Below, piece after piece: positions 2,590-18,262 of a stretch of DNA of 25,902 nucleotides. The DNA comes from a virus, in the IMG/VR virus record IMGVR_UViG_3300042946_000481, positions 1 to 25,902 of that record; one strand, written 5' to 3'. The notes below the pieces were generated by a model. The model worked only from the letters and a program-made list of their open reading frames with translations, searched no databases and was not told the origin of the DNA. The translations under genes were made by a program, and so were the position numbers. Numbering within the stretch: position 1 is the first letter of the stretch; each line of letters starts with the position of its first letter.

Positions 2590-3063
2590 TTATCCTTCAA
2601 TAGTAAAATCTTCATCAGAAGAAGTAAGAACAGTAGCTTTAGAAGCTGCATATGCTGCACGCAATTGCTCAACATTATCATGCTCAATAGTAGTATCTAC
2701 TGCTGCTTCATTAAAAGTAAATTTAGTTCTACGATAGATAGGAAGCCCACCTAAAGTACAAACTATACCTGTCTCACCTGCAACTTTAAGATCTCTTTCA
2801 GGATTTTTCTTGTTGAATGGAGTCAAAGACTCTTCAATAACAATTTTACCATCTAATGCTTGACCACCATAAAGATTCATTGCTGTTAAATCTTCAATAA
2901 GTGCTGGCATCAATGCAGTAATAGTTTTTCTACGTGCAAAACCATTATCATCAATCATAGTTCTGGTTTGTTGTACACGAACATAACCATAATCAGAATT
3001 ATTTTCTGATACGTTAACTACTGCACCTGTTTCATCTGCTGTTACAAAAACTTTAGAGTTCAT
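2590..3063 (-). CDS. Conserved-looking phage protein, possibly OB-fold ssDNA-binding
   Basis: 157 residues, predicted beta-rich: alternating hydrophobic strands through residues 15-110 (DYGYVRVQQTRTMIDDN, then LDGKIVIEESLTPFNKKN, then TGIVCTLGGLPIYRRTKFTF), followed by a helix and an acidic tail (SSDEDFTIEG). A small beta-barrel with an acidic tail resembles phage single-strand-binding proteins, but I see no diagnostic motif, so this is a suggestion only. It is a monocistronic unit, with a repeated leader motif upstream (3081-3109) and a strong terminator downstream, which suggests abundant independent expression. Confidence 0.6.
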   Translation of the reverse strand: MNSKVFVTADETGAVVNVSENNSDYGYVRVQQTRTMIDDNGFARRKTITALMPALIEDLTAMNLYGGQALDGKIVIEESLTPFNKKNPERDLKVAGETGIVCTLGGLPIYRRTKFTFNEAAVDTTIEHDNVEQLRAAYAASKATVLTSSDEDFTIEG

Positions 3064-3080
3064 CTTTTTTAATTTTAAAA

Positions 3081-3109
3081 AGTTAATAAATAAATAGATT
3101 TTTGAGTAG
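3081..3109 (-). promoter_or_regulatory. ATTTATTTATTAAC leader, copy A
   Basis: The minus-strand leader of the 157-residue gene reads CTACTCAAAAATC, then TATTTATTTATTAACT. Nearly the same sequence precedes the genes starting at 6609 and 8568. A promoter or mRNA leader element is inferred from repetition and position. Confidence 0.45.
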
Positions 3110-3118
3110 AATTTACTA

Positions 3119-3146
3119 TATCATTAGCTACTCACGCTAAATGATA
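3119..3146. repeat. Imperfect hairpin
   Basis: TATCATT-AGC and GCT-AAATGATA form a 10-bp stem with one bulged base and a 7-base loop, between the 93-residue gene and the next leader. It may be a weak terminator or a processing signal. Confidence 0.5.
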
Positions 3147-4258: not shown

Positions 4259-4270
4259 TTTAAAGGTTAG

Positions 4271-4344
4271 TGATCCCGTTTGGATTCGAACCAAAGACCT
4301 ACTGCTTAGAAGGCAGTTGCTCTATCCAGCTGAGCTACGGGACC
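4271..4344 (-). tRNA. tRNA-Arg, anticodon TCT
   Basis: The minus strand folds as a complete cloverleaf: a 7-bp acceptor stem GGTCCCG/CGGGATC (one G-T pair), a D-arm GCTC...GAGC, an anticodon arm ACTGC CTTCTAA GCAGT, and a T-arm TTTGG TTCGAAT CCAAA, with discriminator A. The anticodon TCT (plus-strand aga at 4308-4310) reads AGA, which is common in this AT-rich phage. CCA is not encoded. It sits between two protein genes in the leftward arm and probably shares their transcript. Confidence 0.97.
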
Positions 4345-6655: not shown

Positions 6656-6694
6656 AAAAAATGAGCACTTTATTGTCATACTCAGGACATAGAG

Positions 6695-7495
6695 TTAAAA
6701 TGGTAATGGAAAGAATTTATCTTCTAATCCATCAATCCATTGTCTGTCAGCAAATGAATGTATTTCTTTAGTAGGAAATACTTTCTTTGCACATTCAGTA
6801 GCTATTGCATCATCATATACACCATAATCACCTGATCTACCATATAAAATCACATTATCATCTATGATTTTAATCCAACCACCATTAATAGTATACCAAC
6901 CATCTGCTCTAAAGATACTACTGATATCACTGTGACCATTAGATACAAATCCATATGGGTCCCAACAGAATCTAAATTCTGTTTCATTACGGTTTGTTTG
7001 AATGATAAACTTGATACCATCATGGTTCTGAAAATTACTGAAGTCAAGATTCTGAGAATATACTTGATGAGCAATACTTCTCATTTTATTTCTTGTATGA
7101 TTAAGCTCATCACTTTTATCTTTCCACCATTTTTTATATTCATCTTTGGTAGGTTCATCAATTTCAAATGGTATATCTTGATAATCATCTGATTCTTCTA
7201 CAACAACTGATTGTTCTGCTTTGACTGCATCTTGAATCATACCTAATCTAACAGCTAGAGTTAGTATTTGATTCTCTTGTTCAACTTGTATTTTATATTT
7301 ATCAGGTTGAACAACTGATAAAAATGTATCCATGTCATCTTTAGTAACATGAGTATTCCAATTACCACCTGCAAATGATTTAAAATCAGATACTGGTACT
7401 TGAAACACATTGTGTTTGGTAGATAATGTAATTGTATCTCTACCATATGTCTCTACTTCATAAAGACCTTGTCTTGAGTGTAAATGAATTTTCAT
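6695..7495 (-). CDS. Hypothetical 266-residue protein with a PHPT1/Janus-like C-terminal segment
   Basis: The N-terminal 60 residues look beta-rich. The middle is acidic then helical (KDEYKKWWKDKSDELNHTRN). Near residues 205-245 the segment NGGWIKIIDDNVILYGRSGD, followed by YGVYDDAIATECAKKVFP, resembles the GGG-x-I...I-x-VYG-x-S-x-x-xG...A motif of the phosphohistidine phosphatase/Janus family. The catalytic His of that family is not evident, so enzymatic activity is doubtful. The C-terminus ends FFPLPF. The candidate large structured RNA lies directly upstream, so this gene may be on the same transcript. Confidence 0.6.
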   Translation of the reverse strand: MKIHLHSRQGLYEVETYGRDTITLSTKHNVFQVPVSDFKSFAGGNWNTHVTKDDMDTFLSVVQPDKYKIQVEQENQILTLAVRLGMIQDAVKAEQSVVVEESDDYQDIPFEIDEPTKDEYKKWWKDKSDELNHTRNKMRSIAHQVYSQNLDFSNFQNHDGIKFIIQTNRNETEFRFCWDPYGFVSNGHSDISSIFRADGWYTINGGWIKIIDDNVILYGRSGDYGVYDDAIATECAKKVFPTKEIHSFADRQWIDGLEDKFFPLPF

Positions 7496-7588
7496 TTTAA
7501 GTTTATTTATAAGTGATTAATAAGTTCCTATAAGTTGAATACCCTTTACACGCAGTTGTAAACACAGCCATTATTTTTGCCTATGCTC

Positions 7589-8156
7589 CTTTGGTTAATT
7601 ACTCCAAAGACATTTAATCTGTTTACTTACCACACGTCTATGGCTTTCTATTCAGATATATTACAACTGATGTAAAATACCCCTCTGCACTCAGTTGTAA
7701 TAGTATTTCACCATCATATAGAACAGCCATTTTCAGCCTGTATAAGTGTCTGCTTTCAAGACATAAACTTGGTCAATTATCATAGGATGCATTATTTCCC
7801 TTGCCTGATAACATACTGAAGTCAACACTTTTTATTCTATACAACTTCCCACGATTAAGTGGTTACTTGCGGTATTCCTACCTTATTACAACTGCCTGAC
7901 CTTGGGAATCAGGAATGGTGCATTAGTATGAGCAGTTTGTCTACATGCTCAGGTATACGCAGAATTACTCACTGCCTTTCTATTGCGTACTCTCACAAGG
8001 TTGCAATCCTTGACATCTTTACCATATTCGTCAATACCTAAAAGGTGCACGCGGAAAGAACTATAGTACCTGCTTGGATGAGAGTAAATAAATGGCTGTT
8101 TATGCTATAAACATTTAATACATAGTAATTTGTATGATGAATATTTAACAGGCTAG
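7589..8156 (-). ncRNA. Candidate large multi-branched structured RNA
   Basis: The 792-bp gap 7496-8287 has no credible gene and many stems. A perfect 11-bp helix (7722-7732 with 8090-8100) closes a domain of about 360 bases. Inside are TGTCT/AGACA (7747/7759), TTATCA/TGATAA (7777/7806), and a 6-bp helix GGTATT/AATACC (7871/8033) that encloses four hairpins: 7895/7909, 7929/7946, 7956/7984 and 7996/8008. On the left are a 10-bp hairpin (7661-7670/7691-7700) and a 6-bp one (7589/7604). Minus orientation is inferred from the CTAGCC leader at 8151-8156 and the upstream terminator. Size and style recall the phage ROOL and GOLLD RNAs, but family membership is not established. Confidence 0.55.
8151..8156 (-). 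promoter_or_regulatory. CTAGCC leader motif, degenerate copy 6
   Basis: The minus strand reads CTAGCCTGTTAAATATT, compared with CTAGCCCGTAACATAAATT at 10075. Like the other copies downstream of a terminator, it follows one (8202-8224), but what lies after it is the candidate large RNA and not a gene. Confidence 0.45.
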
Positions 8157-8201
8157 CTAAACCTGCAGTACTCAACACCCCTATATAACCATAAAAATAA
8201 A

Positions 8202-8224
8202 GCAAGTCTCAACAGCTAACTTGC
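8202..8224 (-). terminator. Intrinsic terminator after the 49-residue gene
   Basis: GCAAGT pairs with ACTTGC over an 11-base loop and is followed on the minus strand by TTTATTTTTAT. It lies 64 bp past the stop of the 49-residue gene. Confidence 0.75.
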
Positions 8225-8287
8225 ACACCCAGTTTTCAACTGTACCTATGAATACTCAGTAGGTTGGGTTAATAAGGCTGACAGAAA

Positions 8288-8437
8288 TTAATCTGCCAGC
8301 ATAGGTGTTAGCATACATGCCCAAAATAGACAGGATATGCCAATAGACGGGAGTACATTATGCCCAAAAGACATAAGCACTCCCATAAATGTGCCTAGTA
8401 ATAAGACACCAAATAGATAGTGAGCTATACTTTTCAT
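8288..8437 (-). CDS. Tiny membrane protein, 49 residues
   Basis: An ATG at 8437 opens a 49-codon frame ending TAA at 8288. It contains two hydrophobic segments: IAHYLFGVLLLGTFMGVLMS (residues 4-23) and a second near residues 31-46 (SIGISCLFWACMLTPM). Two short membrane helices with a tight turn suit a small inner-membrane peptide. The start overlaps the stop of the preceding 44-residue gene in an ATGA arrangement, strong evidence that both are translated. Function unknown; host-envelope modification or superinfection exclusion are possibilities only. Confidence 0.6.
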   Translation of the reverse strand: MKSIAHYLFGVLLLGTFMGVLMSFGHNVLPSIGISCLFWACMLTPMLAD

Positions 8438-8568
8438 AGCTCAATCACCATTTGCGGTAAACCATTCTTGTCCAATACTCTCTTAACAGTTTTACCATTA
8501 GAGTATTTAACATACTGTACAAGGGATAGATTACCTTGATACAATTCAATCAGAGTTTTAAAAATCAT
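8434..8568 (-). CDS. Small 44-residue protein
   Basis: A 44-codon frame from ATG at 8568, beginning MIFKTLIELYQGNLSLVQYV and ending QMVIEL. It is basic in the middle (KYSNGKTVKRVLDKNG) with two beta-strand-like runs. Support is positional: leader copy C lies just upstream and an ATGA overlap links it to the 49-residue membrane protein. No family recognised. Confidence 0.6.
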   Translation of the reverse strand: MIFKTLIELYQGNLSLVQYVKYSNGKTVKRVLDKNGLPQMVIEL

Positions 8569-8583
8569 AACGTAAGATTTTAA

Positions 8584-8612
8584 AGGTTAATAAATAAATA
8601 TATGATGAGTTG
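8584..8612 (-). promoter_or_regulatory. ATTTATTTATTAAC leader, copy C
   Basis: The minus strand reads CAACTCATCATAT, then ATTTATTTATTAACC, 15 bp before the ATG at 8568. It shares CAACT and the 14-base core with copies A and B. Confidence 0.45.
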
Positions 8613-8627
8613 TTATTTTAAAAACAT

Positions 8628-8644
8628 GCAGGCCTTTCACCTGC
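8628..8644 (-). terminator. Intrinsic terminator upstream of the 44-residue gene
   Basis: GCAGG/CCTGC with a 7-base loop, followed on the minus strand by ATGTTTTTAAAA. It ends the transcript that carries the 80-residue gene and the structured 8654-8706 element. Confidence 0.65.
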
Positions 8645-8653
8645 TTGGGATAT

Positions 8654-8706
8654 AATCCTCAATGGTATGACATTATTGGTTAGTCATACAAGTTGCGGAG
8701 AGGATT
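8654..8706 (-). ncRNA. Nested hairpin element in the 3' region of the 80-residue gene
   Basis: AATCCTC (8654-8660) pairs with GAGGATT (8700-8706). Inside, GTATGAC (8665-8671) pairs with GTCATAC (8683-8689), giving a long two-part stem. The terminator at 8628-8644 follows on the minus strand. It could be a 3'-UTR stability element or a small RNA released from the transcript end. No tRNA features fit. Confidence 0.4.
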
Positions 8707-8789
8707 ACTGCCTCTCACTCTGTAAGTATAAGTTACATAGTTAATCTGTTCCTATCATTTGTTCAAGGATACTGATTAGTATTGAGTAG

Positions 8790-9032
8790 TTAAAGATTAT
8801 CCTTACAGATAATGCTATCAAGGTCACTATATGTACCATGATAGACATTACCTTGTAAAGATTCAACTTTAATGCTGTCTTCAGACACTTCAAGAAAGTA
8901 TTCTGTCTTGATGTGCTGAGAGGCTTTCCCGGGAGTTTCTTTCTTTACAATAACATGTAATACTACATGTATAAGTACACAGAAAGAAACTGCTCCAAGT
9001 ATAAAGCCTATAAGAAATGAATCTCTATTCAT
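8790..9032 (-). CDS. Single-pass membrane protein, 80 residues
   Basis: After a short polar start, residues 6-30 form one hydrophobic segment (FLIGFILGAVSFCVLIHVVL), followed by Lys-Lys and a soluble 50-residue domain with beta-like strands (KTEYFLEVSEDSIKVESLQG). The positive-inside rule would put the soluble part in the cytoplasm. No lipoprotein motif. Function not recognised. The long gene-free stretch 9033-9434 lies upstream and may be its leader. Confidence 0.65.
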   Translation of the reverse strand: MNRDSFLIGFILGAVSFCVLIHVVLHVIVKKETPGKASQHIKTEYFLEVSEDSIKVESLQGNVYHGTYSDLDSIICKDNL

Positions 9033-9517: not shown

Positions 9518-10030
9518 CTACTTGTTAGTCTTTGCACCTTTGGTAGATGTTGTCTCAACATCTTCCAAATTAGCATCTTCAGATGCTTCTGCAGTGAAGT
9601 CATCTTCACTATCTTCATCATCAAGCAAGCTTGATGCAGATGAAGACACAGGTGTGCTATCAGCATACCTTTTTGCAGACTCGGCTGCAATTGCCTGACC
9701 TAAGTCAGCACCGAGGCTCTTGGCAACAAGAGCATCAAATTGCAGTTCGGACTTGTCTAAAGTCCAAGAACCTGCATTGTCACCCGCCTGTACTTGGTAC
9801 AAAGGGTGCCACATATTCTTGCCCGGTAACGGGTAAGCAGTGAAATAAAGTGGAACTTTATTTCCATTACTGAGGATGAGCTTGCCATCCACAGTAGATT
9901 TAAAAACAGGTTCGCTGTTTTTAAAGTTGTTAGCAACGTAAGATGCTAACTCAGTTGAAGTGCCACGCACTTCATAGATGGCTAAGGTTCCACCTTTGCC
10001 AACTTTTAGAAATTTTGCTTGTAAAGCCAT
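9518..10030 (-). CDS. 170-residue protein with an acidic C-terminal tail (possible ssDNA-binding type)
   Basis: Residues 1-100 are beta-rich (AKFLKVGKGGTLAIYEVRG, then DGKLILSNGNKVPLYFTAYP, then WHPLYQVQAGDNAGSWTLD). An Ala-rich helix follows, then a low-complexity tail with an acidic core (SLLDDEDSEDDFTAEASEDA) ending in Lys. A compact beta domain plus acidic tail is the shape of many phage single-strand-binding proteins, but no diagnostic residues are visible. Base use is less AT-rich than most neighbours, suggesting high expression or a different history. It is monocistronic, between a CTAGCCC leader and a strong terminator. Confidence 0.65.
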   Translation of the reverse strand: MALQAKFLKVGKGGTLAIYEVRGTSTELASYVANNFKNSEPVFKSTVDGKLILSNGNKVPLYFTAYPLPGKNMWHPLYQVQAGDNAGSWTLDKSELQFDALVAKSLGADLGQAIAAESAKRYADSTPVSSSASSLLDDEDSEDDFTAEASEDANLEDVETTSTKGAKTNK

Positions 10031-10068
10031 AATTTATAAAATTTAATTGATTTATCAATTTATGTTAC

Positions 10069-10075
10069 GGGCTAG
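10069..10075 (-). promoter_or_regulatory. CTAGCCC leader motif, copy 4
   Basis: CTAGCCCGTAACATAAATT lies 38 bp before the ATG of the 170-residue gene. An AATTGAT/ATCAATT hairpin lies between the motif and the start. Confidence 0.55.
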
Positions 10076-10092
10076 AATAAAAGGGAAAAAAA

Positions 10093-10113
10093 GAAGAGTT
10101 AGAATAACTCTTC
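10093..10113 (-). terminator. Intrinsic terminator after the 63-residue gene
   Basis: A perfect 9-bp GAAGAGTTA/TAACTCTTC stem with a 3-base loop, followed on the minus strand by TTTTTTTCCC. Confidence 0.9.
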
Positions 10114-10130
10114 AGAAGAATTGGAGGATG

Positions 10131-10322
10131 TTAATCCTCTAAGTCTTCATTATAATGGAATGAGCCTGTCTCAATCCATTCTAGAACTTCGCCTTTATAG
10201 GCATGTTCTATACATGTGCCGTCAGCTTGCCTGATGGTATATGTCTCTCTGCCATCAACATCATCTTGATGGCTTATTGTACCTGTACACAGGTAGAATA
10301 CAAAAATTAATTTTGTTAGCAT
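10131..10322 (-). CDS. Small possibly secreted or anchored protein, 63 residues
   Basis: Begins MLTKLIFVFYLCTGTISHQD, a short hydrophobic N-terminus resembling a signal peptide or membrane anchor with a Cys at position 12. The following 45 residues are acidic (DDVDGRETYTIRQADGTCIE, tail NEDLED). The hydrophobic stretch is only about 10 residues, so export is uncertain. It is monocistronic with its own CTAGCCC leader and terminator. No family recognised. Confidence 0.55.
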   Translation of the reverse strand: MLTKLIFVFYLCTGTISHQDDVDGRETYTIRQADGTCIEHAYKGEVLEWIETGSFHYNEDLED

Positions 10323-10363
10323 AATAAAATTGATTTACTTAAAATGATTTCATTTTAAGTTAA

Positions 10364-10370
10364 GGGCTAG
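10364..10370 (-). promoter_or_regulatory. CTAGCCC leader motif, copy 3
   Basis: CTAGCCCTTAACTTAAAA, 41 bp before the ATG at 10322. CTTAAAATG pairs with CATTTTAAG directly after it, giving a 9-bp AT-rich hairpin in the leader. Confidence 0.55.
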
Positions 10371-10384
10371 AAAGAAAGGGAAAA

Positions 10385-10407
10385 AGAAAGGGATAAAATC
10401 CCTTTCT
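10385..10407 (-). terminator. Intrinsic terminator after the 101-residue gene
   Basis: A perfect 10-bp AGAAAGGGAT/ATCCCTTTCT stem with a 3-base loop, followed on the minus strand by TTTTTCCC. Confidence 0.9.
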
Positions 10408-10411
10408 ATGA

Positions 10412-10717
10412 TTATGGTGCTAAAGCATAATCATCATTGGCTTTAGCCATCACATTCTCATAACTTTTGTCTGCAAGGCAATAGATATGAGAATCAACAT
10501 GTATGCAAGTTATGCCCTTGGCAATAAGTTCATACATCTTGTTAACAGTGTATGGCCCTGGCCATTCACATCTGTTTAACATAAGAATACTTTTGTATTC
10601 TTCTGATAACAATGGCATTAAGACTTTGGTGTAGCCACAGTCTAATATGGCCATTGATGCTTGTGGAACTTCAGTTATCACAGGCATAGTTTTTGACATG
10701 TCAAAAAGTGTTTTCAT
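10412..10717 (-). CDS. Hypothetical 101-residue protein
   Basis: Alpha/beta character: ASMAILDCGYTKVLMPLLSE, a helix NKMYELIAKG, then a strand-like ITCIHVDSHIYCLAD. Three Cys are scattered without a zinc pattern. No family recognised. It is expressed as a single-gene unit with its own CTAGCCC leader and terminator. Confidence 0.6.
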   Translation of the reverse strand: MKTLFDMSKTMPVITEVPQASMAILDCGYTKVLMPLLSEEYKSILMLNRCEWPGPYTVNKMYELIAKGITCIHVDSHIYCLADKSYENVMAKANDDYALAP

Positions 10718-16009: not shown

Positions 16010-18262
16010 ATGGACATTTTAAATTTTATATACTGGTTAAGAAGCAGACGTGTAGTAACTTCTGTTGACCCTACTAAAACTCTAATACCAATTGGTATTA
16101 AAGATGATCAAAGAGATGATGAGTTTTTAGCAGCAGGAATATCTGTACAAAATTTTTTAACTCAAGTTGGTCAAGGCCCCGTTGGTCCACAAGGACCCAT
16201 TGGACCTCAAGGACCACAAGGTGTTCAAGGTGTAGCAGGTGTTCAAGGAGCAAATGGTGCGCAAGGTCCTATTGGCCCACAAGGTGCGCAAGGAATTCAG
16301 GGTCCACAAGGTTTAATAGGTCCTCAAGGAGTAGCTGGAGTTGCTGGTGCAACCGGAGCTCAAGGTGTACCTGGACCTCAAGGTATACAGGGACCTGCTG
16401 GAGCTGTTGGTCCAGCTGGATTAAATTGGCAAGGAGCATGGTCAGCTTCAGGAACTTATGTAGTAGATGATGCTGTAGGTTATGGTGGTGCATCATGGTT
16501 TTGTATTAATAATGTTGGTCCTTCTGTAACAACTCCTGATGTAGATCCTACTAATTGGGCATTACTTGCATCACAAGGTGCACAAGGTCCACAAGGAAAT
16601 CAAGGTATACAAGGACCTATAGGTTTAACTGGTCCTCAAGGACCGACAGGTCTTACTGGCCCTCAAGGTATTCAAGGTATTACAGGGGCAACTGGTGCCG
16701 TTGGTCCCGTTGGTCCAACAGGTGCAACTGGTTTACAAGGTCCAATTGGATTAACAGGACCGGCAGGTCCACAAGGAATCCAAGGTCCTGCAGGGCCTCA
16801 AGGTCCAACAGGTGCTCAGGGGCCTCAAGGAGCTCCAGCACCAGCAGGTTTAGTTTGGCAAGGTAACTGGAGTGCAAGTGGTGTATATGCATTAAATGAT
16901 GCAGTAGCATTTGGAGGTTCAACATATTTCTGTACTAATCCTGCAGGAGTAGGTCCTTCCCCTTCAGATCCAGCTTCAGATCCAGGTAACTGGGCACTAT
17001 TAACATCAATTGGAGCTACGGGTCCAGCAGGACCAGCAGGAGCTGCCGGAGCAACTGGACCACAAGGAATAGCTGGACCAGCCGGAGCTACAGGCCCTAC
17101 TGGTGCTACTGGAGCAACTGGAGCAACAGGTGCTACTGGACCACAAGGACCTACAGGAGCAACAGGTCCACAGGGACCAATCGGTCCTGCTGGTTTAACA
17201 TGGCAAGGAGTTTGGGATCCATCTGCAACATATGTACAAAATGATGCAGTTTCTTTTGGTGGAGCTTCCTATTTCTGTTTTGTACCGACTGTAGGACCAT
17301 CTCCTACAGATCCACCATCTGATCCAGGAAGTTGGGCATTGTTAGCTGCTGTAGGAGCAACAGGTCCTGCCGGAGCTGCAGGTGCCACGGGTGCAACAGG
17401 TGCAGCTGGTGCAGTAGGACCACAAGGTCCTGTAGGTCCAGTAGGTCCCGCTGGTGCGACTGGTCCAATTGGTCCTCAAGGTCCAGCTGGTCCATCAGGT
17501 ATTGCAACATTAACCACAAGTGGTACTAGTGGTCTTGCAACTTTAGTTGGTTCTACTTTAAATATTCCTGACTATAGTTTACCATCATGGATTGAAACTA
17601 ATGCATCTGATAAAACTGTTTGGTGTAATGGTAAAACTGACAATATTTCAAATACTGGGTTTGGTGAAGGAACTTTAGCAAGTGTAAGTGGGGGAGGATT
17701 TTCTACAGCAATGGGTAGATTTGCTTTAAGAAACTCAACAACTGCAAGTGGTAATTCAGCTTTTGGAACTCTTTCATTAGCCGGAATAACTACAGGAAAT
17801 GATAATACTGCTGTTGGTTCTCTTTCATTACGACAAGTAGTAACCGGAAGTAGTAATGTTGCTGTTGGGACTAATGCATTAAATGCAAATACTGCAAGTA
17901 ATAATACGGCAATTGGTGCAGCTGCTTTAGCGGCCAATACTACTGGTACTGGTAATGTTGCAGTTGGAAACGGTACTTTATCATCCCTAACAACAGGGTT
18001 AAAAAATACTGCTGTTGGAGGTAGATCATTATTTACAGCTACTGGTTCTAATAACTCAGCTCTAGGTTCTGATACTGAAAGTGGTGCCTTTAACAACTGT
18101 ATTTTACTTGGACAAGGTGCAACAGCTACAGCAAGTGGTCAACTTGTAATTGGTAGTGCAGCAACTAATATCGGTCCAGTTGTACTTTCTACTGAGACTC
18201 AAACTCACTATTTACCAGTAACTATAAATGGTGTAGCATATAAACTTTTATTAACCACATAA
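16010..18262 (+). CDS. Collagen-like modular adhesin or fibre, 750 residues
   Basis: After a 50-residue head, long Gly-x-y collagen blocks alternate with three similar modules of about 50 residues (roughly 138-189, 280-333 and 395-446). Each has W-Q-G-x-W, Y-x-x-x-D-A-V, a Gly-Gly turn, (W/Y)FC and a closing NWALL or SWALL, resembling aromatic carbohydrate-binding modules of the chitin-binding 5/12 type. From about residue 540 come repeats of NxAxGxxxL character ([30 protein letters not shown]), as in YadA-type trimeric heads, ending [17 protein letters not shown]. Collagen stalks trimerise and give long flexible fibres (family knowledge). Function as a receptor or mucus/glycan-binding virion fibre is inferred from these parts and from position. 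Confidence 0.85.

Follow-up and report, generated by a model that had tools for sequence, protein, structure and literature searches.

A phage spacer with a minus-strand row of covarying RNA modules and arms exchanged between related phages

Flaviviral exonuclease-resistant RNAs (xrRNAs) form a three-way junction in which a loop pairs with the strand 3' of P1. The RNA modules described here are phage-encoded, untranslated and structured, like ROOL and GOLLD RNAs; unlike these, they are small and separate with cores of 50-65 nt, they vary in order and presence, and no tRNA island accompanies the locus. GOLLD combines a conserved 3' part with a less conserved 5' part (PMC12286853). T4-like phages carry PeSLs, short conserved intergenic structures with modules shuffled nearby (cited in PMC4503421); PeSLs are promoter-terminator stem-loops around genes, whereas in the present locus the swapped piece belongs to a pseudoknotted RNA, of which it forms an arm. 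Each fold taken singly is of a familiar type, and phages are already known to shuffle modules. The present analysis adds at least four covariation-supported RNA families missing from Rfam 15, in a widespread and little-studied phage lineage, and shows that the RNA arms evolve at a higher pace than the DNA surrounding them.

The window, i.e. the whole stretch of 25,902 nucleotides that was analyzed (IMG/VR record IMGVR_UViG_3300042946_000481), is a fragment of a large phage whose genes left of about 11 kb lie on the minus strand. The terminase, which matches a terminase family of PHROG, is 22-28% identical to its counterparts in Crassvirales and Flavobacterium phages; phages with these modules are distant Crassvirales relatives. 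The sequence-only reading had pointed out nearly 800 bp without a gene and with a lower AT bias, and both observations were confirmed: the gap extends over 792 bp (7496-8287) between a 266-aa gene and a 49-aa ORF, and its GC content is about 0.37 as compared to about 0.30-0.31 left of it. Within the gap, only frames of 55-60 aa occur. Neither ARAGORN nor Rfam matched a tRNA in 7496-8790; the sole tRNA (tRNA-Arg) is located at 4270-4344, about 3 kb downstream. Read on the minus strand, the row starts with module E, followed by two small ORFs (8288-8568), modules G, A and D, and then B, whose 5' and 3' halves are separated by a unique stretch; a B-like second element comes last. The features are as follows.

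8664-8712, minus: module E, conserved segment GGCAGUAAUCCUCUCCGCAACUUGUAUGACUAACCAAUAAUGUCAUACC; stem variants taken from a sequence listing
8434-8568, minus: small ORF, 44 aa, kept between relatives; no Pfam match
8288-8437, minus: small ORF, 49 aa, kept between relatives; no Pfam match; right border of the gap
8092-8192, minus: module G, conserved segment of about 100 nt closed by AUGGUU/AGCCAU, in about 7 islands; structure predicted
7988-8086, minus: module A, three-way junction with pseudoknot; covariation, model match of 33.9 bits (E 2e-5)
8079-8086/7988-7995, minus: P1 of A
8069-8078, minus: J12 of A, UCCAAGCAGG; its GCA pairs with UGC of the P3 loop to form the pseudoknot
8013-8068, minus: swappable arm of A, of a family shared with L031, L035, L074 and L147
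7996-8012, minus: P3 hairpin of A, CAAGG-AUUGCAA-CCUUG
7930-7976, minus: module D, hairpin GGCAG..CUGC, then an H-type pseudoknot (S1 UAC/GUA; pseudoknot GAGCA/UGCUC)
about 7679-7922, minus: module B, three-way junction with pseudoknot; covariation
7918-7922, minus: P1 of B, UGCAC pairing with GUGCA
7895-7913, minus: P2 hairpin of B, CCUGA-UUCCCAAGG-UCAGG
7884-7894/7692-7702, minus: P3 of B
7703-7883, minus: arm of B, about 180 nt, including the inner arm of an 11-bp inverted repeat discussed below
3' end of B, minus: tail GAGGGG; its GGGG forms the pseudoknot with UCCC in the P2 loop
7542-7676, minus: second element resembling B but lacking P2, UUUACAUCAGUUGUAA .. UUACAACUGCGUGUAAA; carries an arm of its own; assigned by sequence similarity to B
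6695-7495, minus: 266-aa gene, left border of the gap
6663-6688, minus: module D2, H-type pseudoknot GUC-CU-GAGUA-U-GAC-AAUAAAG-UGCUC, 6 nt past the stop of the 266-aa gene

The comparison covered about 250 related phage loci. Loci were retrieved via two neighboring proteins; furthermore, pattern scans of IMG/VR for A and B yielded at least about 120 stretches each. In relatives, short conserved blocks form a mosaic across the spacer. Among 22 loci picked by neighboring proteins, a set which includes identical or near-identical contigs, 20 contained A, 11 contained B and all 22 contained at least one of the two, always on the gene strand and never on the opposite one. B was also present in 14 of 15 large contigs, a figure that does not measure prevalence since these contigs were chosen by A/B matches; the 22-locus set is less biased. 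In the large contigs (113-127 kb) A and B are usually single-copy and surrounded by small ORFs of the same orientation, with a divergent gene boundary at a distance of a few kb. A was located 5' of B in 89 of 93 cases. The ORF downstream of B was co-directional at 142 of 147 sites and the upstream one at 129 of 146.

Module A of the window has the P1, J12 and P3 hairpin with RUUGCAA loop that define its family. In the alignment, 98.5% of cells were paired with double changes in 8 of 18 pairs, a result reached by 0 of 500 shuffles; the rows were hand-picked after removal of chance matches, with three variants added, and the sample therefore leans towards structure. The pseudoknot UUGCA (J12)/UGCAA (loop) is replaced by the compensated form UUGUA/UACAG in L055 and L214, whereas J12 of the window is the short form, so that only three pseudoknot pairs are possible there. 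The hairpin loop of A holds the self-complementary UUGCAA.

The element in the window likewise has the parts which define B, namely P1, P2 with the UUCCCAAGG loop, P3 and a tail whose GGG pairs with that loop; the B model produced two partial matches (26.9 and 22.7 bits) split by the 180-nt arm. Frames of B were gathered by anchors that did not require complementarity. Over all 51 distinct frames, 98.2% of cells were paired and 13 of 22 pairs showed double changes; double-change cells numbered 121 as compared to 25.5 in shuffles (reached by 0 of 500), and slid controls gave 31-55% pairing. The outcome was the same when 47 frames picked by hand were counted. About 18 stem sequences of P2 surround the near-constant loop UUCCCAAGG, a listing which serves as an illustration and not as evidence because it requires pairing. 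Additionally, the pseudoknot is changed in a compensated manner in L215 (loop UUCAC, tail GUGG). One-sided changes in pairs of A and B lead to G-U pairs in the sense orientation.

B occurs in variants without P2 (L255), with a further two-helix insert (F-type) and with an endonuclease ORF (L011). The F-type insert is found in P2 of L249, L062, L068, L198, L201, L232 and L259; it consists of GUGGAUAUAAAGACUUCUUA..UAAGAUGUGAAACCAC plus CUGAUUAAU..AUUAAUCAG and is apparently another frame with two arms. The ORF in L011 (3889-4461) encodes a GIY-YIG/NUMOD1 endonuclease and sits within B, on the upstream side of P2; a junction of this kind is also seen in L211.

For D and D2, rows were selected by sequence similarity to the consensus; 98.4% of cells were paired for D, with double changes in 7 of 12 pairs and a covariation score of 0.473 as compared to 0.166 in shuffles, and 98.1% for D2, with double changes in 4 of 8 pairs. 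Their loop-to-tail pairing GAGCA/UGCUC is exchanged for GGACA/UGUCC, AAGCA/UGCUU, AGGCA/UGCCU, GAACA/UGUUC or GAGUA/UACUC. The listed variants of the terminal stem of E are AUGAC/GUCAU, ACAGC/GCUGU, ACAAC/GUUGU and GUAGC/GCUAC. A recurrent block AACCAGGCACAAUCAUGACUCUUAGUGCC..ACCUACCUAGGGAGUUGAGUUACCCGA in L014, L110, L113, L117, L141 and L245 is probably a further structured module. The alignments establish A, B, D and, past the next gene, D2 as covarying modules oriented as the neighboring genes.

The gap had previously been proposed to encode one large multibranched RNA built around an 11-bp pairing. Structured RNA is indeed present, conserved, with strong compensatory change in relatives and outside Rfam, but it lies on the minus strand, and the single-RNA shape, the main helix and a membership in ROOL/GOLLD had to be given up. 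The pairing AACAGCCATTT/AAATGGCTGTT exists at 7722-7732/8090-8100; however, it does not exceed chance and is not conserved. Of dinucleotide shuffles, 9.8% contained one or more perfect inverted repeats of 11 bp, and the region contains four such 11-mers, which partly belong to the real B stem. As a conserved core this helix was rejected: of the five loci in which the outer arm is retained, none has the inner one (7722-7732). The outer arm instead closes module G in the predicted fold (AUGGUU 8187-8192 with AGCCAU 8092-8097), and the real long-range helix is the P3 stem of B, 7884-7894/7692-7702, in the minus-strand reading. Nested 6-bp helices had been taken as exceeding chance, a view not borne out by 125 observed 6-bp matches as compared to 97 expected. 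Folding of the whole region gave MFE z-values of -1.39 (plus) and -2.14 (minus), with 2 of 20 and 1 of 20 shuffles as stable; this barely exceeds shuffled sequence, so that energy alone is not decisive. In place of a single RNA of 360-800 nt, a minus-strand row of independently placed small modules was found.

Comparison of the arms revealed constant cores of A and B between which arms are exchanged among phages as a cassette. Arms formed 47 clusters in 107 elements for A and 87 in 110 for B, and the center of the B arm in the window is unique to this phage among the approximately 250 loci. The window and L023 are almost identical in sequence over 8190-8440 and throughout the cores, with both arms replaced; the A arm of L023 belongs to a family unrelated to that of the window. 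Arms were unrelated in 45 of 48 (A) and 20 of 28 (B) flank-homologous pairs, and conversely both flanks were unrelated in 122 of 136 (A) and 19 of 26 (B) arm-homologous pairs; only exact duplicates were removed, and these counts are descriptive and not independent because pairs share members. Among the arms of A, one family has a covarying fold of its own (double changes in 7 of 14 pairs); by our reading, its internal-loop motif recurs as a permuted version in an arm of B (L014, L037, L183). On average, arms fold only slightly better than shuffles (mean z about -1, equal on both strands).

With somewhat better than even confidence, we favor as a whole the view that the spacer is a minus-strand RNA island of covarying modules with exchangeable arms, in which cores may dock and arms may confer specificity. 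The island would be transcribed together with the co-directional gene row; we consider this step well founded, as A and B can sit only a few bases apart and are found close to ORFs. The arms are likely, with moderate confidence, to be exchanged through homologous recombination in both conserved halves of a core. Tentatively, the constant core may dock on a conserved phage or host factor, with the arm as the specific or decoy part under arms-race selection. This would explain unrelated yet folded arms in near-identical phages; docking and decoy are speculation. D2 may mark or protect the 3' ends of transcripts. The modules might then constitute a two-part phage RNA system, a pseudoknotted core bound by a conserved factor plus a library of exchangeable folded arms which set specificity and are shuffled by phage recombination in an arms race, which would parallel, at the RNA level, the swapping of variable domains in phage proteins. 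Arm exchange could also be neutral. If the arms set specificity, they offer a ready library for target finding; if not, they show in natural variants how much a pseudoknotted core can tolerate.

About as likely as core docking with arm specificity, and likewise held with reserve, is a cis-acting role: A, B, D and D2 would punctuate a polycistronic transcript by exonuclease block, termination or antitermination, or tuning of the next gene, with a working core and the arm as filler. This agrees with the median distance of 151 nt between B and the next ORF, with D2 beginning 6-10 nt past stop codons and with the U-runs that sometimes follow D or D2. Furthermore, the order P1-P2-P3-P1'-tail of B with its loop-to-tail pseudoknot has a topology resembling that of xrRNAs. 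B uses another loop in the pairing and belongs to a bacterial phage; we know of no sequence relation between the two. Against this role, the genes adjoining B vary between phages, which argues against gene-specific regulation, and some arms have their own conserved structure.

It appears improbable that the modules are ribozymes or processing sites like Hatchet, which does occur in some of these islands. Hatchet (RF02678, 81 bits) scored above the gathering cut-off in the same spacers as A and B, at 46-208 in L036 and at 3003-3139 (minus) in L242; a pattern search found eight non-identical copies, each located 0.8-1.6 kb upstream of A or B and encoded on the same strand. Hatchet and A/B share islands, strand, conserved ends and a variable middle, but they differ in their conserved nucleotides and do not match each other; A and B resemble no Rfam ribozyme even at E up to 10, and only 1 of the 15 large contigs contains Hatchet. 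No Hatchet score above the Rfam gathering cut-off was obtained in the window, and no Rfam model of group I or II introns matched either.

Equally doubtful is an explanation at the DNA level, in which the conserved halves would be homology arms and the middle the passenger of a recombination cassette, much like the mobile regulatory PeSL cassettes in T4-like phages. The pattern of arm and flank exchange and the endonuclease ORF inside B of L011 would fit, but compensatory double changes and pseudoknots require folded RNA or single strands, and G-U pairs together with strict orientation point to RNA. Cassette exchange is nevertheless compatible with a function of the RNA. Least likely is one large ornate ROOL/GOLLD-type RNA with A and B as domains: the usually single locus, the fixed strand and A preceding B would suit it, but A and B also occur without each other, ORFs and unrelated modules lie between them, and instead of one contiguous fold with fixed domain order, separate and ORF-interrupted modules were found.

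Rfam 15 contains no family matching the modules; relaxed searches (E up to 10) returned only low-scoring, unrelated matches such as snoRNA and miRNA models, and none to ROOL or GOLLD. The earlier suggestion of a possible new family is supported in that modules backed by covariation have no match there. DNA matches to the modules in the named phages of INPHARED did not exceed chance, and five named relatives contained no match to the B model. The open-licence literature yielded no description of the modules; a 2017 catalogue of 224 candidate RNAs lies outside this scope. In bacterial genomes, the B tail had three exact matches, two of which look like chance as the rest of the module is absent. 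The third is a B with F-type insert; the 8-kb contig that carries it was binned as Neisseriaceae but is probably a stray from a phage.

Elsewhere in the window, two HNH-endonuclease-like genes (PHROG matches; 906-1628 and 1640-2044, minus) belong to the same gene row. Upstream of the island, at 10030-10131 and 10320-10412 (minus), terminator-like hairpins with U-runs are followed by UUCUAGCCC(U/G)UAAC before the next gene; this arrangement of hairpin and UUCUAGCCC is a repeated intergenic layout. At 16010-18262, a 750-aa collagen-like protein with many GPQGP-type repeats is encoded.
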